A stretch of DNA of 32,458 nucleotides from Armatimonadota bacterium (lineage in GTDB: Bacteria; Armatimonadota; Fervidibacteria; Fervidibacterales; Thermosaccharophagaceae). This document shows, piece after piece, positions 9,785 to 32,458 of the stretch. The stretch's first letter is position 1. Every line of letters begins with the position of its first letter. A model generated the notes under the pieces. That model was not told the DNA's origin. It ran no database searches and saw only the letters and a list, made by a program, of their open reading frames with translations. Position numbers and translations under genes: made by a program. The stretch lies in the NCBI GenBank assembly GCA_025062195.1, contig JANXAS010000010.1:42749-75206 (forward strand). The letters run 5' to 3'.

Positions 9785-10564
9785 ATGAAATGCAGCAACG
9801 CCGCAGACAAAGAATGCGATAAGGTAGGGGGACAAGTGCTGCTATCCCTGTCGGCATACATGCGCATTAAGGCGCATTCACTACTCACCTACCCGGATGA
9901 GTGCTGTGGGTTGCTCATCGGGCGAAAGGCGGGTGCAACAGTGTGGGAGATAATGAAAGCCTTCCCGACAAGGAATGCTCACAGGGAACGAAAGCGTGAC
10001 AGGTATGAAATTGAGCCTCACACAATACTCACAGCCATGACGGGAGCAAAGATACAAGGGTTAGAGTGGATTGGCGTTTACCATTCACACCCAAATGTGC
10101 CACCCGTCCCCTCTTTAACTGATTCGGAGTTGGCTTGGGAGGGCTTGATTTATTTGATCATGAGTGTATTCAACGGTGGAATGACAGTTGCTCGGGCTTG
10201 GCTATACACTGGCGAGGTAGCAAATGGGCTTACAGATGGCTTTGCTGAACTTAAGATTGCCACACTTGAGGACGCGTTCTTCCATGCAAGCGGACACATG
10301 AATGATTTAGGGGCGGAAGCGCAGATTGACCTAAGGGACGAAGTGTTGCCGTTCAACATCATACGGGCAAAAGAGAAGCTTGAGCAAATGCAGCCCGGGC
10401 AGACACTGAGCATCATCTTTAACTGCGAGCGCTCTTTGAAGCAGCTCGTTGAAGCACTTGAGGACGACGGACATTACGTGCTCTGTCTGCGTTTTCAAGG
10501 TGAGCACCAGTGGGAAGCATTAGTCAAGCGCGGTTATAAGCCCGGCTCAAAAGCGAGGTTTTAA
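9785..10564 (+). CDS. JAMM (Mov34/MPN/PAD-1) metallopeptidase fused to a TusA-like domain
   Basis: Residues ~20-150 are a prokaryotic JAMM domain with the full zinc site: E39 in PDECCGLLIG, H100 and H102 in GVYHSHPNV, then S110 and D113 in SLTDSE. Such enzymes cleave C-terminal extensions or conjugates of ubiquitin-like sulfur carriers (for example Mec+ acting on CysO). Residues ~178-250 look like a TusA/SirA domain: IDLRDEVLPFN, IIRAKEKLEQMQPGQTL and a DDGH turn match its beta-alpha-beta layout. The CPxP motif has become LPFN, with Leu188 replacing the sulfur-carrying Cys, so this domain may bind a partner and not carry sulfur. The ATG at 9785 follows GAGGTGG at a spacing of seven; a GTG at 9836 with AGGGGGA just upstream is an alternative. 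The gene stands alone, divergent from the sigma gene. The JAMM call is firm; the TusA call is by pattern only. Confidence 0.85.
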   Translation: MKCSNAADKECDKVGGQVLLSLSAYMRIKAHSLLTYPDECCGLLIGRKAGATVWEIMKAFPTRNAHRERKRDRYEIEPHTILTAMTGAKIQGLEWIGVYHSHPNVPPVPSLTDSELAWEGLIYLIMSVFNGGMTVARAWLYTGEVANGLTDGFAELKIATLEDAFFHASGHMNDLGAEAQIDLRDEVLPFNIIRAKEKLEQMQPGQTLSIIFNCERSLKQLVEALEDDGHYVLCLRFQGEHQWEALVKRGYKPGSKARF

Positions 10565-13144: not shown

Positions 13145-14230
13145 TTAAGCTCGTTTAGATGCCGCGCAAACTTTTCCGGCGAGCTTGAGCAGCTCTTTTG
13201 CCTCCTGCTCCGATGAGCAATGCACCGTGAGCATTAAACCGTTGGGCGAAAGTTCGCTCAACACCCTTTCAACATTCTGCGGTGCAACACCAATTAAAAC
13301 TACACCTTTCCCAGCAGCCTGTATGCGTTTGTAGTATGGGAACCATATCGGGTCATCCACTGGTGGCTTGCCGGCACCCGGCGTCCATTGAATTGCATCC
13401 AGCTCGGGTATGGACAGCAAAAGGTCAAGATGCACAAGTTGCCCAACACCATCCCAATGATAAACCGAATGTTCAAGCCAGCGACATTGCTCCTCCAGAA
13501 ACGGCAGGATGAGTTCCTCAAACTGCCTCGGTGAGACCATATAAGAGAAATCGCATTGTATCGGATACCACGTCCCACCGCTCCAAAGCCCCATCCACGC
13601 GCTGCGCCCGTGCATATGCTTTTGCAGCAACTCGTCAAGCTCGCTATAGTAGCGAAACCAAAGATGGACGATACGCTGCGAAGCCCTTCTCACCTTCATC
13701 GGTTCGGTGACGAAGTCTTCGAGCAAGTTGAGTGTGCCCCTTAGCGAGGCAAGTATATCAGTGACGCCACCAAGATCAGTCATGCCAACAAAGGCTTTGC
13801 CCTTAAAATACTTCGCCGCCTCTTCAGTGAGACTCTTCACAAACTGCCACCATTTGTTCCCTTCACCATACTGCAAACATTCCATGACTTTCCCCCAATC
13901 CATCGGCGTCTCAAACCACACCGTCGTCTCAGCAAACCTTGGTATGGCACCAATGAATGTAGCCATATATCCCGGACCGAGGTTGCACCAAAAATTCGGG
14001 AATGCCTCGCCACCATAAAATGTGCAAGCAAACTCAGCTTCGGCTTTCTCAATCCGAAACGGGATATCAAGCCATTGCTGCTCAATTGATGATGGGGCTT
14101 TCACAGGCTTGTGTGGCATCGGCTTTTCACGCGGAGCTGTTACACATATCACGGGGCGGTCAATAACTTCCTTTTGCCAGAACGCCTCCCAACGCTCCGT
14201 TGCCTTCTCCCAATCCTCCTTGTATAGCAC
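13145..14230 (-). CDS. Uroporphyrinogen decarboxylase-fold (URO-D) family protein
   Basis: The 361-residue protein has the general layout of the URO-D/MtaA-CmuA superfamily: an N-terminal region with WEAFWQKEVIDRPVI, a mid-protein DLGGVTDILASLRGT, a conserved acidic strand near VYHWDGVGQLVHLD, and ELDAIQWTPGAGKPP with a C-terminal TIM-barrel end. True HemE has a Phe-Arg-Gln-Ala-Gly-Arg N-terminal motif that I do not see. This is therefore probably a paralogue acting on another substrate, such as a corrinoid methyltransferase-like reaction, and not haem synthesis. Genes of this class are common in polysaccharide-degrading bacteria without known function. The GTG start at 14230 follows GAGGTGAT at a spacing of about seven. 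It has no partner gene nearby. Confidence 0.8.
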   Translation of the reverse strand: MLYKEDWEKATERWEAFWQKEVIDRPVICVTAPREKPMPHKPVKAPSSIEQQWLDIPFRIEKAEAEFACTFYGGEAFPNFWCNLGPGYMATFIGAIPRFAETTVWFETPMDWGKVMECLQYGEGNKWWQFVKSLTEEAAKYFKGKAFVGMTDLGGVTDILASLRGTLNLLEDFVTEPMKVRRASQRIVHLWFRYYSELDELLQKHMHGRSAWMGLWSGGTWYPIQCDFSYMVSPRQFEELILPFLEEQCRWLEHSVYHWDGVGQLVHLDLLLSIPELDAIQWTPGAGKPPVDDPIWFPYYKRIQAAGKGVVLIGVAPQNVERVLSELSPNGLMLTVHCSSEQEAKELLKLAGKVCAASKRA

Positions 14231-24840: not shown

Positions 24841-25036
24841 AAGTGAAGGCAATAGGCAAATCGAAAGGCAGCGTGGGCACATGAAATAAACCGAAACTAT
24901 ACGGGCTGCCGTTCCCTTTCCTCTTAGCGCAACTCACATTGTCCATACTGTAGGGTGTGAAATAAATGGCAACTGTGTTGCATCCTTAAAAGATGGGCAA
25001 ACAAAGGTTAATCACATATCGGATGGAGTGAGCCAC

Positions 25037-26047
25037 ATGAAGGATCCCGGAATTTTCGCCGAATTTGGCGATGATGGTGTTGTTTACTCCTCACGGAAAA
25101 CCATTATAGATGTTAAACCGATAGAAGTTCGCTGGCACGGTCGCGCCGGACAGGGAATCAGGACTGTTGCCCTATTGCTCGGGCATGTCGCATTAGCCGA
25201 GGGAAAATGGACACAAGCGTTCCCTCAATTTGGGCCAGAAAGGCGCGGTGCCGCAGTTGAGGGCTTTACGAGAATTGCCGATGTCCCCTTAACAATACAT
25301 GGCGGGATAGTATCACCTGATGTTGTCGTCGTTATTGATGACTCACTCCTTACCAGCGCAAGCGTGCTTAATGGACTGAGGCAAGATACCACGCTCATCG
25401 CCAATGTCCCATACTCAGCAAAGGAACTTCGAAATGTCCATCCAGTATTTGGTGCTTTAAACCGTGTTGCTGCAGTTGATGCAACTGCTATCTCACTTGA
25501 TACGATAAAGCGCAATATGCCTAACACACCCATGCTTGGCGCAGTCGCAAGAGTTACAGGCACTGCAAAGCTTGAGACATTGAAATCTGTTTTAACCGAA
25601 CACCTGCCTGAGAGAGTCAGGCGGCGTGCGGAATTGCTTGAAGCTAACTTGAATGCTGTTGAGAGGGGATACAACGAAGTTCAGGTTGACGAAGAACCAA
25701 CAAGCCCACCCGAGGTCATAGGAGAATACATCAAGGGGGCAACATTGCCGTCGTGGGAAGAGCTCAGCCTCGGCGGAATAATACCACAACCTGCAACATC
25801 GCTCTCCTACAAAACGGGTAGTTGGCGAAGCGAGCTACGCCCCGTCTGGGATGCGGAAAAATGCACAAACTGCTATATGTGCTTCATACATTGCCCAGAT
25901 AACGCCATCCTCATAAAAGATGGGAAGGTAATCGGGATAGATTACGAGTATTGTAAGGGTTGCGGCATATGCGCCGCTGTATGCCCACCTAAGGTTAAAG
26001 CCATAACGATGCACCCAGAGCGCGAAGCAGCCCCAGCCAAGCAATGA
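25037..26047 (+). CDS. porG: Pyruvate:ferredoxin oxidoreductase gamma-delta fusion subunit
   Basis: Residues ~28-215 are the gamma domain: EVRWHGRAGQGIRTVALLL binds CoA or the interface, and FPQFGPERRGAAVEGF is its hallmark. Residues ~270-325 are a two-cluster ferredoxin delta domain with C276, C279, C282, C286 and C306, C309, C312, C316 (CTNCYMCFIHCP and CKGCGICAAVCP). In many archaeal and bacterial enzymes gamma and delta are separate; here they are one 336-residue chain. An N-terminal ~25-residue stretch is extra. The ATG at 25037 has GGAG about eight bases upstream; a GTG at 25028 is an alternative. It opens an operon with the alpha and beta genes. The enzyme decarboxylates a 2-oxoacid to acyl-CoA and reduces ferredoxin. 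Confidence 0.93.
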   Translation: MKDPGIFAEFGDDGVVYSSRKTIIDVKPIEVRWHGRAGQGIRTVALLLGHVALAEGKWTQAFPQFGPERRGAAVEGFTRIADVPLTIHGGIVSPDVVVVIDDSLLTSASVLNGLRQDTTLIANVPYSAKELRNVHPVFGALNRVAAVDATAISLDTIKRNMPNTPMLGAVARVTGTAKLETLKSVLTEHLPERVRRRAELLEANLNAVERGYNEVQVDEEPTSPPEVIGEYIKGATLPSWEELSLGGIIPQPATSLSYKTGSWRSELRPVWDAEKCTNCYMCFIHCPDNAILIKDGKVIGIDYEYCKGCGICAAVCPPKVKAITMHPEREAAPAKQ

Positions 26048-26085
26048 CGGTAAATGGCAAATCAAACACCAATGGAGGGATCAGC

Positions 26086-27312
26086 GTGGGAAGCACGAAG
26101 GTTGGGGGCAATTTTATTCGCGGGCAGATAAAGGGCTTAATAGGCGATGATGCTGTTGCTGAGGCTATGCGCCAGATAAATCCGGATGTGGTTGCAGCAT
26201 ACCCAATAACGCCGCAAACGCTCATCGTTGAGAAATTTGCTGAGTTTGTTTCGGACGGCCTGGTTGACACCGAAATGATACATGTTGAGAGCGAACATAG
26301 CGCTATGAGCGCATGTATAGGTGCTGCAGCTGCCGGAGCAAGGGCGATGACTTCAACTGCCTCGCAAGGGTTGGCACTCATGTGGGAGATGCTTTACATT
26401 GCCTCGTCACTTCGCCTGCCAATCGTAATGGCTGTCACAAACAGGGCACTTAACTCAAATCTGAACATACATTGCGACCACGCGGACACGATGGGCGCAA
26501 GAGATTCAGGTTGGATACAACTTTATTCCGAGAACGCTCAGGAAGTATATGACAACACGATACAGGCGGTGCGCATTGCTGAAACCATATATCTTCCGGT
26601 CATGGTTTGCTTTGATGGATTCGTGGTCAGCCATTCACTTGAGCCAGTCGAAGTATTGCCCGATGAGGCGGTGAGGGAATTCATCGGCGAATTCAAGCCA
26701 CTATATTCGTTGCTTGATGTTGACAACCCAATAACAGTTGGACCCGTTGATTTGCCACCGTTTTACATGGAGCACAAGCGTTCCCAGTGGGAGGCAGTAA
26801 ACAGGGCACCCGCAGTGGTGATTGATGTTGGGATGGAGTTTTACAGGCGCTTCGGAAGAGCATATGGGCTTGTTGAGTCATACGAACTTAAAGATGCTGA
26901 ACTTGCGCTTGTGGCGATAGGCTCGGCAGCTGGGACAGTTAAAGCCGCCATTGATGTGGCTCGTTCAAAGGGCATCAAAGCTGGCTTGCTAAAGATTAGG
27001 ATGTATAGACCGTTTCCATGGGCTACGATCAGGAAACTCCTTGAGGGAATGAAGGCTATTGGTGTCATGGACAGAGCATTAAGCTCAAATGGCGAGGGCG
27101 GCCCTTTGTTTACAGACATAAAAGCCGCTCTTTACGAATCCGAAAAGCGCCCCAAGGTCATCAACTACATCTACGGGCTTGGTGGAAGAGACATAACCAT
27201 AACGCAAATCTTGAACATACTTAAGCAGCTTGAGGCAGTTGCAAGTGGAGAAGCTGTTGAGCCAGTCCAATGGGTCGGATTGAGAACTAAGGCTGGTGTG
27301 ACATTCTCGTAA
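26086..27312 (+). CDS. porA: Pyruvate:ferredoxin oxidoreductase alpha subunit
   Basis: This ~408-residue alpha subunit binds the 2-oxoacid and part of the thiamine site. It shows AAYPITPQTLIVEKFAEF, the VESEHSAMSACIGAAAAGAR motif, and NIHCDHADTMGARDSGWIQ with LYSENAQEVYDNTIQ, which are hallmarks of pyruvate-type enzymes more than of 2-oxoglutarate ones. The C-terminal ~180 residues match the transketolase-C-like domain (SYELKDAELALVAIGSAAG, KAGLLKIRMYRPFP). I favour the GTG at 26086 because GGAGGGA sits seven bases upstream; an ATG at 26044 overlaps the previous stop codon and is possible by translational coupling. The gap to the beta gene is 42 bp. Together the three genes form one oxidoreductase. 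Confidence 0.93.
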   Translation: MGSTKVGGNFIRGQIKGLIGDDAVAEAMRQINPDVVAAYPITPQTLIVEKFAEFVSDGLVDTEMIHVESEHSAMSACIGAAAAGARAMTSTASQGLALMWEMLYIASSLRLPIVMAVTNRALNSNLNIHCDHADTMGARDSGWIQLYSENAQEVYDNTIQAVRIAETIYLPVMVCFDGFVVSHSLEPVEVLPDEAVREFIGEFKPLYSLLDVDNPITVGPVDLPPFYMEHKRSQWEAVNRAPAVVIDVGMEFYRRFGRAYGLVESYELKDAELALVAIGSAAGTVKAAIDVARSKGIKAGLLKIRMYRPFPWATIRKLLEGMKAIGVMDRALSSNGEGGPLFTDIKAALYESEKRPKVINYIYGLGGRDITITQILNILKQLEAVASGEAVEPVQWVGLRTKAGVTFS

Positions 27313-27354
27313 GCCTTAGCTGCATTCACTCCGAAGATAAGGGGGCAAGATGAA

Positions 27355-28314
27355 ATGCCAACCGCAAGGGAATTGGTAAGGAGAAAGCCGGTGCTTGTTA
27401 GCGGGCACAGGATGTGCTCTGGATGTGGTGCCGCAATGACCCTGCGGCAAGTGCTGCTTTCCTCACCTTATCCAGTGGTTATTGCCTGTGCAACAGGATG
27501 TGTTGAGGTCTCAACATCTATCTTTCCTGAGACAGCGTGGAATGCCTCATGGATACACAGCGCATTTGAGAACACAGCGGCAACTATCTCCGGTGTTGAA
27601 GCTGCATACAGGGCACTGAAGCGCAAGGGGAAAATTGAAAGGGAGATAAAATTCATAGCCATCGCTGGTGATGGCGGAACTTACGACATAGGCTTGCAGG
27701 CGCTTTCTGGAGCGCTTGAAAGGTGGCACGACTTTGTCTTCGTGTGCTATGACAATGGTGCTTACATGAACACAGGCATACAGCGTTCAGGCGCAACACC
27801 AAGGGGCGCATACACAACCACAACACCAGCAGGTAAGGTTATACCCGGCAAAGTCCATCCGAGAAAGGACTTAACAGCTATAGCGGTTGCCCACAACATC
27901 CCGTATGTTGCACAAGCCAATGCAGCGTATTGGCGTGACCTGACGACTAAGGCGGAGAAGGCGATAACTACGGAAGGTCCCGCAGTGCTTGTAATCTACA
28001 GCGATTGCAATTTGGGACACGGACACGAGCCTTCCGAAGCAATTGACATATCAAGGCTGGCAACGGAAACATGCTTCTGGCCCTTGTATGAAGTTGTTGA
28101 AGGCAAGTATCGCTTAACATACCGCCCGAAGGAAAAATTGCCAGTGAGGCTCTGGCTTGAAAGACAAGCCCGTTTCAGGCACCTGTTTGAGCCACAAAAT
28201 GAACACATCATTGATGAGATACAGCGTGAGGTTGATAAGGCTTGGGAACGACTGCTATGGCTCTGCGGGGAGTCTAAAGGCGAAAGCAGTGAGGGAGTTG
28301 ATAAGGGCGCGTAG
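27355..28314 (+). CDS. porB: Pyruvate:ferredoxin oxidoreductase beta subunit
   Basis: The 319-residue beta subunit binds thiamine diphosphate and the proximal 4Fe-4S cluster. The cluster ligands are visible as C21 and C24 (HRMCSGCG), C49 (ATGCVEVST) and C218 (YSDCNLGHG). The thiamine/metal motif is GDGGTYDIG (105-113) followed by YDNGAYMNTG about 25 residues later. VHPRKDLTAIAVAH and the GIQRSGATPRGAYTTTTPAGK-type segment (about 141-161) match pyruvate enzymes. The ATG start lies 42 bp behind porA. Substrate could be pyruvate or a related 2-oxoacid; motifs favour pyruvate. The UspA gene follows after a 77-90 bp gap. Confidence 0.94.
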   Translation: MPTARELVRRKPVLVSGHRMCSGCGAAMTLRQVLLSSPYPVVIACATGCVEVSTSIFPETAWNASWIHSAFENTAATISGVEAAYRALKRKGKIEREIKFIAIAGDGGTYDIGLQALSGALERWHDFVFVCYDNGAYMNTGIQRSGATPRGAYTTTTPAGKVIPGKVHPRKDLTAIAVAHNIPYVAQANAAYWRDLTTKAEKAITTEGPAVLVIYSDCNLGHGHEPSEAIDISRLATETCFWPLYEVVEGKYRLTYRPKEKLPVRLWLERQARFRHLFEPQNEHIIDEIQREVDKAWERLLWLCGESKGESSEGVDKGA

Positions 28315-28400
28315 GCTAACCGAGCTTAGAACAATTTCTCGCTTCGCTAAAGGACTTGCAAAGTGCAAATTAGCGCTACAACACGACGGGGGTGAAGCAT

Positions 28401-29387
28401 TTGATAACTCGTATTCTATGGGCGACGGATTTTTCTCAAGTCGCTGAGAGAGCTCTTGAATGGGCGATGCTTTTTGCAAAGACATTTGATGCAAGCATAA
28501 TTGCCACACATGTTGCCCCAGATTGGGTGAGATATTACGAGGAGAGGGGCTTCGTTGGATGGACTGAAGGGGAACTATCTCAAGCGCTTGCCACAATACA
28601 GAATGTGCACATAAGCGCCCTCACAGAGCAGATGAATGAGCGTGTGGAACAATTGCGCTTGTTAGGCTTCAGGGTTGAGAGCGCTCTGCTGCTTGGCTCG
28701 CCAGCCGTCCAGATACTTGAGTATGCGGAACTCGTGCATGCCGATTTAATTGTCCTCGGCTCAAGGGGAATGCGCACACTCAAGGAGCACTTGCTTGGTT
28801 CAACAGTTGCCAGGATCATACAGGGTGCGCAAGTCCCAGTCATGGTTGTTCCAGCAGTCGCCCCAGCTGAGTCGGAGATAAGGTTTAAACAAATACTCGT
28901 GCCGACTGATTTTTCAGCTGCAACGAGGGCTGCAATAGACTATGCCCTGTGTTTGGCAAAAGCCTTCGGCGCACAGATACACCTTTTGCATGTGATTGAG
29001 TTACTTGAATCGGTTGGAGAAAGAGAAGCACTGCAAGAGCTTGAGAGGATGATAAGCAATGGACTTAAGCAATGGGTGAAAGAGTGCATGGGCGACGGAT
29101 ATGAGATACCAATACATGTAGTGCGATGTCACCACGCCGCTGATGGAATAGCACTGTTTGTTGAGCACGAGGGCATTGACTCCATAGTTATGAGCACTCA
29201 TGGAAGGACAGGTCTTGTTCGTTTCCTATGGGGCAGCGTTGCCGAACGGATTATAGGGCAAGTTGGATGCCCCGTTATAGCTGCTAAGGCTGCTTCATTC
29301 CGAAAAGCGCTTAGCCAGCTGAATCATCACCCTACCAATGCTCACTTCAAGTTTGACTGCTACAACTGCACTCGCAGCGCCATCTAA
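28401..29387 (+). CDS. Tandem-domain universal stress protein (UspA family)
   Basis: Two Usp domains lie in tandem: residues ~1-150 (starting ITRILWATDFSQVAERALEW) and ~155-305 (KQILVPTDFSAATRAAIDYA). Each carries the ATP-binding G-2x-G-9x-G-S/T loop: GSRGMRTLKEHLLGST in the first and STHGRTGLVRFLWGS in the second, so both are probably nucleotide-binding. Usp proteins help cells under starvation or redox stress; the precise role is unknown. The likely start is the TTG at 28401, with GGGGGTGA five bases upstream; a GTG at 28392 lies within that box. It sits between the pyruvate oxidoreductase genes and the iron-sulfur paralogues and may belong to the same transcript. A possible role in redox stress is inference. 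Confidence 0.9.
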   Translation: MITRILWATDFSQVAERALEWAMLFAKTFDASIIATHVAPDWVRYYEERGFVGWTEGELSQALATIQNVHISALTEQMNERVEQLRLLGFRVESALLLGSPAVQILEYAELVHADLIVLGSRGMRTLKEHLLGSTVARIIQGAQVPVMVVPAVAPAESEIRFKQILVPTDFSAATRAAIDYALCLAKAFGAQIHLLHVIELLESVGEREALQELERMISNGLKQWVKECMGDGYEIPIHVVRCHHAADGIALFVEHEGIDSIVMSTHGRTGLVRFLWGSVAERIIGQVGCPVIAAKAASFRKALSQLNHHPTNAHFKFDCYNCTRSAI

Positions 29388-29423
29388 TGGGAGTTTGGTT
29401 GTGCCACATTGAGGTGGATTGGA

Positions 29424-30281
29424 ATGCCCGACTTAACCTCGCAGTTGAAGTCCTTCGCTGACAAGCATAGGGTTGATCTGATTGGTATTGCGCCCATTGA
29501 AAGGTTTAATGATGTGCCACCTGAACATCATCCTGCATCAATCTTCCCTGAGGCTCGCTCTGTGCTCGTTATCGCAAAGAGGATCCCAAGAGGCGCGCTC
29601 CGCGGGGTTGAAGAGGGAACTCACTTCACTTCATTTGAGCTGTATGGGCGCTCATGGCTGATAGATAGGGTGCTTGCTATTGCGACCATTTCAGTTGCAA
29701 CCTTCTTGGAGGATAACGGATGGGAAGCAGTTCCATTGCAGGACCTCCCGCCACAGATACCACCATCTGGCAAACCAGTTAAACATGGGCTGCCTGCACC
29801 AAATGTTATTGTTGATGCCAAAGACGCAGCAGTGCGCGCCGGGATAGGTGAAATAGGATATTGCGGTGAACTTCTGACGCCCAAGTTCGGACCGAGACAA
29901 CGGTTGCAACTGATATTAACTGATGCTGAGCTTGAGCCAACGCCAGTTTGTGAGATGCAAATATGCGACATGTGCATGGAGTGCGCCAAAAGCTGCCCGC
30001 TTGGCGCAATGCAAGGCGAGGTCAAAATTGTGATTTGCGGTAAGGAGATGCTCACAGCACAGATTGATTGGGATTTGTGCAGGCACTGCAAGAATGGCGC
30101 TTCACCAAATCCATATCACCCCTTAGGTTTGCCCGACCGCCTCGGTGCAATTTGTGTGCGAAGCTGTGTTGACTATCTTGAGCGTGCCGGAAAGATAGCC
30201 TCAACATTTACCAGCCCTTTTAGGAGGCGTCCACCGTGGGAGATTGACCACACGGGGCGCACAAAGCTGCAGAAAAGGTGA
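29424..30281 (+). CDS. QueG-like double-cluster iron-sulfur protein, paralogue 1
   Basis: The 285-residue protein resembles the epoxyqueuosine reductase (QueG)/reductive-dehalogenase-type superfamily. The N-terminal half has DLIGIAPIERF, HHPASIFPEARSVLVIAKRI and a GIGEIGYCGELLTPKFGPRQ segment, then a cluster-binding motif with C181, C184, C187 and C191 (CDMCMECAKSC). A second set is C219 and C222 (CRHC) with C244 and C248 (CVRSC). Known members reduce organic substrates, often with cobalamin; the substrate here is unknown. It is unlikely to be QueG itself because three copies occur in a row and the C-terminal HEAT region of many QueG proteins is absent. The ATG at 29424 has GAGGTG seven bases upstream. 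It overlaps paralogue 2 by four bases, indicating co-translation. Confidence 0.85.
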   Translation: MPDLTSQLKSFADKHRVDLIGIAPIERFNDVPPEHHPASIFPEARSVLVIAKRIPRGALRGVEEGTHFTSFELYGRSWLIDRVLAIATISVATFLEDNGWEAVPLQDLPPQIPPSGKPVKHGLPAPNVIVDAKDAAVRAGIGEIGYCGELLTPKFGPRQRLQLILTDAELEPTPVCEMQICDMCMECAKSCPLGAMQGEVKIVICGKEMLTAQIDWDLCRHCKNGASPNPYHPLGLPDRLGAICVRSCVDYLERAGKIASTFTSPFRRRPPWEIDHTGRTKLQKR

Positions 30282-31342
30282 ATTTAGCGGTGAGGAAGCC
30301 ATTGACCAAAAAACAGCTTGCTGAATTCGCTCGTTCGTTCGGGATTGATCTTCTCGGAGTCGCAAATGTTGAGCGGTTTGTGAATGCACCAAAACATATG
30401 CACCCAGCAAGCATCTTTCCGGAAGTTCGTTCTATCATAGTTGTTGCAAGGCGCATTGTCAGGGGTTGCTGGAGGGGAATTGAGGAGGGGACGAATTGGC
30501 TCAGCTACACATACTTTGGTTATCACGGTCTCCTTAACACGCTCTTCATACCGCTGGGCGTCTACGAGCTTGCGTGCTTCATTGAGGATCACGGCTACGA
30601 AGCGGTGCCATACTATCCGGGCGTTCCGGAGGCACAGCCGCCAAATGAGCCGCTTCGCGATGGAGCTCCACCATATGATGTCCATCTTGCGATCAGGATC
30701 GCAGCTGTAGCTTCTGGGCTCGGTGAGATTGGGTGGTCAAAGGTTTTCCTGACGAGGGAATTTGGTCCGCGCCAAAGGCTGGCTGCAGTATTGACCGAGC
30801 TTGAGCTTGAGCCAGACGAACTCGTCATGCCGAGCAGCATTTGCGATAGGTGCATGGAGTGCGTCCATGAGTGCCCATGTAACGCCATCCCGCACATCCG
30901 TGAAGGAAAAACTGTGCGCGTGGAGATTGACGGATACGTTTACGAATGGGCTGACCTTGATGTCGGCAAATGTGTGCTTTGCTATCACGGCGCAGACCCA
31001 AGGGTATCACCATTCATTCATAAGAGCCTCCCCGGATTTGAGTTTGATGTGCGTAAACAACGGGTGGATGAGGAGACAGCATACAGGATTTGTTGGACGC
31101 TATCCACTCAGCCATGGCGGCGGACAAGAGAGGATACATCAGGGTTCGTCATTGAAGGGCATGCACAAATTCAGCGTTGGGGCGTTGGCGGAAGCTACGG
31201 GATTTGCGGTTCAAGGGGATGCATGAGAAGTTGCTTTGACCATTTAGAGCGCCTCGGAAAGATTGGGCAAAAATTCCACGGTGGATCATTCATCAGGAGG
31301 GAGAGATGGCTATTGCCACACAAGGTGCCGCCAAGGAAATAA
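30278..31342 (+). CDS. QueG-like double-cluster iron-sulfur protein, paralogue 2
   Basis: The 354-residue paralogue keeps the same plan: LLGVANVERF, MHPASIFPEVRSIIVVARRI, GLGEIGWSKVFLTREFGPRQ, then C189, C192, C195 and C199 (CDRCMECVHEC), C232 and C235 (CVLC), and C315 and C319 (CMRSC). An insertion of about 50 residues (~240-305; KSLPGFEFDVRKQRV to IEGHAQIQRWG) separates the last two cysteine pairs and adds C271 and C310. The first GTG overlaps the stop codon of paralogue 1 (GTGA). A second GTG at 30290, eight bases after AAGGTGA, is an equally good start. Function is as uncertain as for paralogue 1; the insertion suggests a different partner or substrate. Confidence 0.85.
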   Translation: MNLAVRKPLTKKQLAEFARSFGIDLLGVANVERFVNAPKHMHPASIFPEVRSIIVVARRIVRGCWRGIEEGTNWLSYTYFGYHGLLNTLFIPLGVYELACFIEDHGYEAVPYYPGVPEAQPPNEPLRDGAPPYDVHLAIRIAAVASGLGEIGWSKVFLTREFGPRQRLAAVLTELELEPDELVMPSSICDRCMECVHECPCNAIPHIREGKTVRVEIDGYVYEWADLDVGKCVLCYHGADPRVSPFIHKSLPGFEFDVRKQRVDEETAYRICWTLSTQPWRRTREDTSGFVIEGHAQIQRWGVGGSYGICGSRGCMRSCFDHLERLGKIGQKFHGGSFIRRERWLLPHKVPPRK

Positions 31343-31403
31343 GGGCAAGCGCTTGGTTGACCCTTTCACACTGCAGAAGGAAACGCAATAGGGGGAGAAG
31401 GGA

Positions 31404-32396
31404 ATGTTAACCGCAAAGAAGGTGAAGGAGTTTGCGAGGAAGTGCGGAGCAGACATAGTTGGGATCGGCTCCATGGAAAGATTTGATGGCGCACCGAAGG
31501 AAATGGATCCAAGATACATCTTCCCCGAGGCGAAAGCGATAATCGGGTTTGGCTTTCGCATACCGAGAGGATGCTTCCGAGGGATTGAAGAGGGAACTTA
31601 CTTTGCAGCATACCCATCAATGGGCTATGCACATATTAACCTCATCTTTGCACCAACTGTGCTCAGGCAAGTTGCATGCATGATTGAGGACGAAGGCTAC
31701 GAGGCAGTGCCAATTCAGAACATGGTGATTGGCTCCTCAGTGGATATACTCTTGGGCAAGCCGACGAGAATAAGTGTGCCAGTCTCGCCGAACAAGCCCG
31801 CCCCTGATGTGCTCCTACACTTCAGAATTGCTGCAGTCATATGTGGCATGGGCGAAATCGGTTATAGCAAACTGCTGCTAACACCAGAGTTCGGTCCGAG
31901 GGTGCGCCTTGCATTCATGCTCACAGATGCACCACTTGAGCCAGACCCAATTTATGACGGTCCGCCAATTTGCGATAGATGCATGCTGTGTGTTAAGGAA
32001 TGCACAGGTAAAGCCATAAGCCCCGATAGGACGGTAAAGTTGAAGGTTGCCGGCAAGGAATTTGAGTGGGGCGAGTTGAATGAAGAAAGATGTGCCCTTG
32101 CTTACACTGGCGGCGCAATGGAATTTAACCCATTTTACACGGGCGAACTTGAGCCAATAAGGTTTGAGGAAATTGAAAGGGATAGCGGTGGCTATACAAG
32201 ACCCGAATTTGAGACGGTCTACAGAAAACTCAGATACAATGTCAACTCCGTGGCTGTCTTTCACCACTTGGGGGCAATTGAAGGCGCAAGGGGCTGCATC
32301 AGAGCGTGCATGATTCACCTTGAAAGTCAAGGCAAGCTTAAAAACAAATTCAAAGAGCCGTTCAGAAAGAGGCGACCTTGGACAATCGCACAGTAG
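31404..32396 (+). CDS. QueG-like double-cluster iron-sulfur protein, paralogue 3
   Basis: The 330-residue paralogue has DIVGIGSMERF, MDPRYIFPEAKAIIGFGFRI, GMGEIGYSKLLLTPEFGPRV and the first cluster ligands C190, C193, C196 and C200 (CDRCMLCVKEC). The second site has only C230 in CALAY where the others have CxxC: the second cysteine is Ala233. C298 and C302 (CIRAC) remain, so the second cluster lacks one ligand or uses another residue. The usual Pro after the first motif is also replaced (CTGKAI). The ATG at 31404 has GGGGGAG six bases upstream. It ends 62 bp before the window edge. The altered ligand set suggests this copy has diverged in redox properties or function. Confidence 0.85.
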   Translation: MLTAKKVKEFARKCGADIVGIGSMERFDGAPKEMDPRYIFPEAKAIIGFGFRIPRGCFRGIEEGTYFAAYPSMGYAHINLIFAPTVLRQVACMIEDEGYEAVPIQNMVIGSSVDILLGKPTRISVPVSPNKPAPDVLLHFRIAAVICGMGEIGYSKLLLTPEFGPRVRLAFMLTDAPLEPDPIYDGPPICDRCMLCVKECTGKAISPDRTVKLKVAGKEFEWGELNEERCALAYTGGAMEFNPFYTGELEPIRFEEIERDSGGYTRPEFETVYRKLRYNVNSVAVFHHLGAIEGARGCIRACMIHLESQGKLKNKFKEPFRKRRPWTIAQ

Positions 32397-32458
32397 CTAC
32401 TGCCATCGCACCAAAGGCGTTGGCTTTAATTCATAGGTGAGAACGCTCGCATCAAAAT

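Follow-up and report, generated by a model that had tools for sequence, protein, structure and literature searches.

The window analyzed here is a stretch of 32,458 nucleotides from an Armatimonadota bacterium (contig JANXAS010000010.1, positions 42749-75206) that runs to the end of its contig (75206 bases), in a genome of 3.42 Mb that is 97% complete. Near its end lie three genes, here called Q1, Q2 and Q3, downstream of the genes of a pyruvate oxidoreductase (POR). The Q1 and Q2 proteins represent a widely distributed two-gene branch, apparently not yet described, of the superfamily of the reductive dehalogenases (RDases) and the epoxyqueuosine reductase QueG, and we consider it probable that the two form a heteromeric cytoplasmic cobamide/[4Fe-4S] reductase, of which Q2 would be the catalytic subunit and Q3 a separate relative. 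No description of Q1-Q2 pairs was found in the titles and abstracts of the literature (open papers). The three genes are located as follows:

29409-30281, forward strand: Q1 (P0001), class III cobamide-enzyme-like protein; TTG start, with an in-frame ATG at 29424.
30278-31342, forward strand: Q2 (P0002), class III cobamide-enzyme-like protein; 4-nt overlap with Q1.
31404-32396, forward strand: Q3 (P0003), class III cobamide-enzyme-like protein from a clade of its own.

The relatives of Q2 were collected by scanning the contigs of GTDB genomes with a Q2 alignment, and the best 80 of 213 are referred to as the pair loci; all 80 titles denote metagenome-assembled genomes (MAGs), and some of the contigs are identical to contigs of the Armatimonadota genome set used below (G handles). 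At least nine phyla (or their classes) appear in these titles, among them Armatimonadota, Omnitrophota, Planctomycetota, Kiritimatiellota, Lentisphaerota, Verrucomicrobiota, Bacillota, Hydrogenedentota and BRC1/Sumerlaeota; isolated unexpected bins, Bathyarchaeota for instance, could be contaminants. In 75 of these 80 best loci, Q2 is preceded by a Q1 gene at a distance of no more than 1.2 kb. As for the remaining five, two are cut by the contig end (L195 and L227), two carry no intact Q1 (L154 and L166), and in L158 a Q3-type and a U32-like gene stand upstream of Q2 in place of Q1. The gap between Q1 and Q2 (n = 75, start codons picked by a simple rule) had a median of 13 nt; the genes overlapped in 16 loci, and the gap was at most 50 nt in 62 and at most 150 nt in 72. 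Furthermore, the distances among Q1 proteins correlate with those among Q2 proteins (r 0.75, 72 pairs), and the Q1 and Q2 trees are broadly parallel in appearance. The initial annotation of this DNA had suggested a heteromeric complex within a dedicated system of POR and Q proteins; the present results point to a probable two-protein unit of Q1 and Q2, but not to a complex belonging to such a por-Q system.

In a tree of 109 sequences, Q1 (97/95), Q2 (100/94) and Q3 (100/99) form separate clades. The window Q1 groups with the Q1 of genome G019 (89/94), the window Q2 belongs to a group in which the Q2 of G019 is found as well (97/77), and the window Q3 groups with genes of G017 and G030 (100/98; 77-78% identity). 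A tandem triplication, as had been proposed for the three genes, was thus rejected, because the trees put one member in each of three old clades; since Q3 is, in addition, found elsewhere without the pair, the trio consists of the Q1-Q2 pair and an old relative. No Q1 or Q2 gene was found beside a Q3-clade gene in 15 other Armatimonadota contig stretches, and a Q3-type gene was also present in 6 of the 80 pair loci. Conservation in related genomes had been set beforehand as a test of the proposed system, and by it the Q1-Q2 pair is conserved, whereas the trio and the por neighbourhood are not. Long relatives (22 aligned), present in 12 of the 80 pair loci, carry two Q-like domains in one chain and provide a precedent for two such domains acting together.

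A second, divergent type of Q pair was observed in three contigs (G019:C173, G013:C88 and G027:C67; loci L067, L064 and L070), with its members basal in the Q1 and Q2 clades. Because these members branch at the base of both, the pairing may predate both clades.

None of the three proteins matched a Pfam family above its cut-off. The best NCBIfam match was in each case the RDase model TIGR02486 (44.4, 38.9 and 44.1 bits for Q1, Q2 and Q3, below its cut-off of 160.35), followed by the QueG model TIGR00276 (26.7, 36.3 and 23.3 bits, below its cut-off of 200), and these matches span a core of ~70 residues. When a profile of 12 Q2 relatives was compared with solved structures, RDases were matched with E-values of 1.8e-15 and 4.5e-11, and QueG with 1.2e-6. 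HHalign comparison with five QueG sequences of relatives gave probabilities of 99.3% for Q1, 99.0% for Q2 and 98.7% for Q3. The placement of Q3 is by sequence profile, and AlphaFold2 models cover Q1 and Q2 (mean pLDDT, the predicted local distance difference test, 92.5 and 81.4). The Q1 model matched QueG 5d0a with a VIA Z of 17.5 (200 residues, root mean square deviation [rmsd] 2.7) and PceA 4ur3 with 15.9 (217 residues, rmsd 3.1), and the Q2 model matched QueG with 15.9 (210 residues, rmsd 2.9) and PceA with 14.7 (221 residues, rmsd 3.5). The next structural family was human MMACHC (Z 9.7 for Q1 and 9.0 for Q2), with CblD at Z 6-7. The genome has a QueG of its own above the cut-off (382.8 bits, C2:3851-4864), so that queuosine formation does not require the Q genes. 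By these comparisons Q1-Q3 are placed in the RDase/QueG superfamily, the 'class III' cobamide enzymes, but are neither QueG nor RDases at the level of the model cut-offs; profile, HHalign and the fold matches of Q1 and Q2 thus bear out the initial assignment to a QueG/dehalogenase-like family. In a 2021 paper (PMC7585037), the class III cobalamin enzymes are described as the RDases plus QueG.

The three proteins have the motifs 'RIxRGxxRGxEEGT', 'GxGEIG', 'FGPRxR' and CxxCxxCxxxC in common, with pairwise identities of 41% for Q1 and Q2 and also 41% for Q1 and Q3. Before the C-terminal CxxxC, Q2 and Q3 carry ~40-65 additional residues, and Q1 has an extra CxxC instead; the earlier observation of shared motifs and cluster sites with a differing insertion and differing cysteines therefore holds. 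The residues were counted in 74 Q1, 80 Q2 and 25 Q3 sequences, and the positions concerned are the following:

29964-29996, forward strand: Q1 cluster-I motif CxxCxxCxxxC (C186-C196), intact in the window; at least one Cys is missing in 29/74 Q1 sequences.
30078-30167, forward strand: Q1 cluster-II CxxC (C224, C227) and CxxxC (C249, C253); C224, C227 and C249 are kept in 74/74 and C253 in 68/74.
30761-30778, forward strand: Q2 FGPRQR, with R167 aligned to PceA residue 305 (HMMER).
30842-30874, forward strand: Q2 cluster-I motif CxxCxxCxxxC (C189-C199), kept in 80/80 except for C192.
31220-31234, forward strand: Q2 GCxRxC (C315, C319) near the C-terminus, in cluster II together with C232; all three are kept in 80/80.
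31971-32309, forward strand: Q3 cluster Cys C190, C193, C196, C200, C230, C298 and C302, kept in 25/25 at the aligned columns.

Ten Q2 residues were found in all 80 sequences, i.e., Y82, R140, R165, R167, C189, C195, C199, C232, C315 and C319. At the position of PceA Arg-305 (FGPxxR), where the numbering of the sequence file was taken as that of the papers, Arg was present in 80/80 Q2, 25/25 Q3 and 72/74 Q1 sequences. The candidate catalytic Tyr (Y82 in Q2, by alignment to the D-Y-H of QueG, in a weakly aligned stretch) was present in 80/80 Q2, 25/25 Q3 and 29/74 Q1 sequences. In the same weak region, the QueG Asp column holds D in 72/74 Q1 sequences, A, N, S, Q or H in Q2 and H in 24/25 Q3 sequences, and no single Q family keeps both the Asp-130 and the D-Y-H of QueG. 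According to the QueG structure paper (PMC4646009), Tyr-101 of QueG corresponds to Tyr-246 of PceA, Asp-130 to Asn-272, and QueG has no counterpart of PceA Arg-305. The window proteins have eight (Q1), eight (Q2) and seven (Q3, plus a Glu) candidate cluster Cys. The eighth cluster site (Q2 residue 310) is C in 36, G in 24 and E in 20 of the Q2 sequences, and E in 16 and C in 9 of the Q3 sequences; a simple Cys/Glu swap at the eighth ligand of Q2 was rejected in view of this larger set. Since the Q2 residues are invariant, and the cluster-I Cys and the Tyr of Q1 drift, Q2 would be the catalytic subunit and Q1 its partner.

The fold of Q1 and Q2, the homology, the conserved pairing and the residue conservation are computed properties; the binding of a cobamide, the formation of a complex, the electron donor and the substrate are what we infer in the following proposal. 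Q1 and Q2 would be the two subunits of an oxygen-sensitive cytoplasmic reductase with a cobamide and two [4Fe-4S] clusters. The two clusters of Q2 would hand low-potential electrons to a base-off cobamide, at whose upper face the candidate Tyr (Y82) and R167 would act in the reductive cleavage of a C-X, C-O or similar bond. Q1, which has the same fold with drifting cluster-I ligands and Tyr, probably completes Q2 or serves it electronically. Q3 would be a related enzyme that elsewhere lies mostly apart from the pair and here stands in the same gene row. The donor is probably ferredoxin, which would be reduced by the single POR detected in the genome; as the substrate, a soluble compound arising from the degradation of carbohydrates or plant matter is probable.

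Several observations weigh against this proposal, whose cobamide and clusters are predicted. The RDase model also gives sub-cut-off matches in 11 of 14 well-known genomes used as a control, and such matches therefore mean little alone. The Foldseek TM-scores of the Q2 model to RDases and QueG are modest (TMq 0.37-0.46, E ~1e-8 to 1e-6), and residues 63-88 of this model, around Y82, have a pLDDT below 50, so that the assignment of the Tyr depends on a weakly aligned region. C192 of Q2 (window 30851-30853) is C in 69/80 and D in 11/80 sequences; in a Pyrococcus ferredoxin, Asp at the equivalent place binds a cluster. Two genes may also stay paired by inheritance alone, with no physical contact between their products, and the evidence for the pair comes from MAGs, in which mis-binning and contig cuts are possible. 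As for the cofactor, no cobalamin riboswitch adjoining the pair was detected in the 36 sources scanned, 30 of them with the pair and 20 of them short, with only ~600 bases upstream of Q1 covered; the one riboswitch found, in L172, lies ~7 kb from the pair. CobS was detected in 16 of 59 Q-positive Armatimonadota genomes, the window genome among them, against 19 of 232 other genomes (p 2.4e-4), but it is absent from 43 of the 59, and most Q-positive genomes would hence have to salvage the cobamide.

The neighbours of the pairs suggest carbohydrate or plant-matter breakdown. Of the 65 pair loci whose flank extends over 900 bp or more, 23 have a regulator within 500 nt upstream (IclR in 14, AraC in 5, LacI in 3 and one AraC-like by eye; one member of each class was confirmed). 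Near some pairs or Q3 genes we also observed genes for an FAD-dependent oxidoreductase, an HpcH/HpaI aldolase, 2-hydroxyacid dehydrogenases and an enolase-superfamily protein, a GH20-like gene, URO-D-family genes and, by eye, transport proteins (sugar transport). No single conserved pathway was seen around the pairs, and the substrate is therefore a guess. A further setting was observed in L011 (G000:C114:9000-21746), where a 776-aa protein with two Q-like domains is accompanied by an SDR-like gene (by eye), a URO-D-family gene, a MetF-like gene, a methylene-tetrahydrofolate reductase C-terminal domain and genes for the large and small subunits of a [NiFe(Se)]-type hydrogenase, possibly a C1/corrinoid neighbourhood. 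The URO-D family includes corrinoid methyltransferases.

A bolder form of the proposal, which we put forward tentatively and regard as possible, would make Q1-Q2 a third, obligately two-subunit branch of cobamide/[4Fe-4S] enzymes in many anaerobic phyla, with the active-site residues possibly split between the subunits (Tyr and Arg on Q2, the QueG-type Asp on Q1), that carries out a reductive bond cleavage new to this superfamily during the breakdown of carbohydrate-derived compounds. A widespread two-gene unit with one conserved and one drifting member would add a heteromeric branch to class III, and a defined gene pair would be at hand for expression. In addition, labelling genes of this kind as QueG or RDase by transfer would probably be an error.

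Among the other explanations, the one that survives best, although we hold it to be unlikely, is that the Q proteins handle the cofactor, i.e., that they bind, reduce or deliver a cobamide like the human MMACHC/MMADHC pair. MMACHC and CblD are the next structural matches after RDase/QueG, they have the same nitroreductase-like B12 fold, MMACHC and MMADHC are likewise paired proteins of related fold, and the two-domain Q protein of L011 lies near URO-D-family and hydrogenase genes. The match to RDase/QueG is, however, far better (Z 14-17 against ~9 and 9.7), and CblD aligns to residues ~20-178 only. MMACHC and MMADHC have no [4Fe-4S] clusters, whereas Q2 and Q3 keep most of the cluster ligands and the Arg of the PceA active site. 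In addition, single genomes carry up to 13 match segments to Q3 (fragments counted), above the need for a housekeeping chaperone.

A second alternative, quite unlikely in our view, is the one put forward initially, in which por and the three Q genes together make up a single electron route dedicated to an unknown substrate. The ORF (open reading frame) list gives the order porGD-porA-porB-usp-Q1-Q2-Q3 on the forward strand, so that the gene row of the initial annotation and its 4-base overlap between the first two Q genes are confirmed by the coordinates. The genes that precede Q1 are:

25028-26047, forward strand: porGD, fused gamma and delta POR subunits; GTG start, with an in-frame ATG at 25037.
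26044-27312, forward strand: porA (alpha subunit), 4-nt overlap with porGD.
27355-28314, forward strand: porB (beta subunit), PF02775.
28392-29387, forward strand: double UspA-domain protein, PF00582 in two stretches (E 5.6e-59).

The same strand and the short gaps speak for such a route, as does the co-occurrence of the Q genes with POR. Q2 was matched at E<=1e-20 in 59 of 291 Armatimonadota genomes (Q-positive here means a P0002 match, and some of these genomes hold only Q3-type or long relatives), and PorB was present in 46 of these 59 against 37 of the 232 other genomes (Fisher odds ratio 18.6, p 2.7e-19, with genomes treated as independent, many of them being related). This fits ferredoxin as the electron source, although a shared anaerobic life may explain it as well. 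We then compared the por loci themselves, 42 in number; they come from 41 of the 46 Q-positive genomes in which PorB was matched (G005, G019, G032, G058 and G289, with weak or partial PorB, were left out). A Q gene adjoins por in only four of them, namely the window, G050 and G264 (both from one genus, in another family), where porB is immediately followed by a Q3-type gene in the same orientation, and G268, where a Q3-type gene is convergent next to por. The other 38 por loci showed no Q gene in the stretch examined, several of them ending near a contig end, so that some Q genes beside por may have been missed. A chance estimate that we derived from ~8 Q genes in ~4000 genes gives ~0.2 adjacent loci expected, and the recurrence of por with Q3-type genes is hence above chance, yet far from a rule. 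From the side of the pairs, none of the 80 pair loci matched PorG, PorA or PorB of the window, and only short PorD-like ferredoxin matches were seen in L220 and L230. Furthermore, the PorB match was single in 44 of the 46 Q-positive genomes with PorB (G220 has two, and G058 two fragments), which is suggestive of a housekeeping POR. On the 42 por loci and the 80 pair loci a conserved por linkage was rejected, the dedicated por-Q system found no support, and the link between por and Q genes looks mostly local; POR-reduced ferredoxin is still a plausible donor to the Q proteins.

In two of the pair loci, both Omnitrophota MAGs, a lone gene for a gamma-like 2-oxoacid:acceptor oxidoreductase subunit was observed on the other strand ~3 kb downstream of the pair (L186:12975-13550(-) and L200:6085-6711(-)), beside RtcB-like and patatin-like genes by eye; it counts on the side of a por-Q route. 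The L186 gene scores 49 bits with TIGR02175 (cut-off 81). Since it was revealed by clustering and missed by the PorG search, other distant oxidoreductases could have been missed as well.

That the Q proteins are catabolic reductive dehalogenases, acting on halogenated compounds in the manner of NpRdhA, appears very unlikely. Like the RDases (PceA 4uqu, NpRdhA 4ras), they have the fold, CxxCxxCxxxC with a second cluster motif, and the GxGE..FGPxxR core with the Arg-305 position, the models of Q1 and Q2 match PceA and NpRdhA in structure, and TIGR02486 is the best NCBIfam match for all three. However, the 39-44 bits are far below the cut-off of 160 and of the kind also obtained in 11 of the 14 control genomes, the proteins are shorter, and by eye the core fold starts directly at their N-termini, without an export leader. 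They differ further from RDases in that Q1 and Q2 are encoded by paired genes and in that the second cluster motif of Q2 and Q3 is reduced to C...CxxxC. As for an RdhB-type membrane anchor, the partner in respiratory RDases, only Q2 lies between Q1 and Q3, and the overlapping contig described below begins with a 152-aa membrane protein.

Finally, it is scarcely credible that the Q proteins are extra epoxyqueuosine reductases acting on tRNA, since, for all their likeness to QueG (5d6s, 5d08) in fold (best Z), two-cluster layout and core size and their second-best NCBIfam match to TIGR00276, they score 23-36 bits against 200, do not keep the D-Y-H plus Asp-130 set (A/N/S/Q/H at the Asp column in Q2, His in 24/25 Q3), have the Arg-305 position that is missing from QueG (PMC4646009), and reside in a genome with a true QueG (383 bits).

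The POR of the window is an ordinary four-function enzyme like the known PorGDAB, with the gamma, delta, alpha and beta subunits all present and co-linear (ORFs, Pfam and NCBIfam). porGD matches PF01558 (E 1.4e-32), TIGR02175 (187 bits, cut-off 81) and TIGR02179 (97 bits, cut-off 60), and porA matches PF01855 (E 1.7e-79) and PF17147 (E 5e-32). The best NCBIfam match of porA, PorA_Arch, reaches 523 bits, under the cut-off of 550, and porB reaches 348 bits with the PorB model NF008819, under the cut-off of 405; it is the sole PorB match in the window genome (G000) at E<=1e-20. The fusion of PorG and PorD is a feature of the window, as in 29 of the 30 other por loci having both they are in separate frames or split by a stop.

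At the end of the row, the last 122 bases of the window (32337-32458) recur at the end of another contig (G000:C85), by eye with a single mismatch immediately ahead of the Q3 stop, which is probably a contig junction or a strain variant; a position of Q3 as the last gene of the row would depend on this near-identical overlap. The promoter and terminator scan gave no excess over shuffles and is therefore of no use for setting the operon limits.

A U32-peptidase-like protein of ~350 aa with conserved Cys was found to adjoin Q3-type genes in several phyla (L052:8178-9224(-), L057, L058, L153, L157, L158, L170, L171 and L204). It matches PF01136 with E 3e-5 in one member and gave no match in another, and its U32 relatives UbiU and UbiV carry Fe-S clusters. 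As a candidate partner of the pair it was rejected: it is present in 6 of the 80 pair loci, the same six that have a Q3-type gene, and also in three Q3 loci without the pair (L052, L057 and L058).

Elsewhere in the window, the gene at 13145-14230 on the reverse strand encodes a 361-aa protein that had no Pfam or NCBIfam match at E<=0.1 and resembles, by eye, the TIM barrels of the URO-D type, and the gene at 9785-10564 on the forward strand encodes a protein in which a JAB domain (PF14464) is joined to a TusA sulfurtransferase domain (PF01206).

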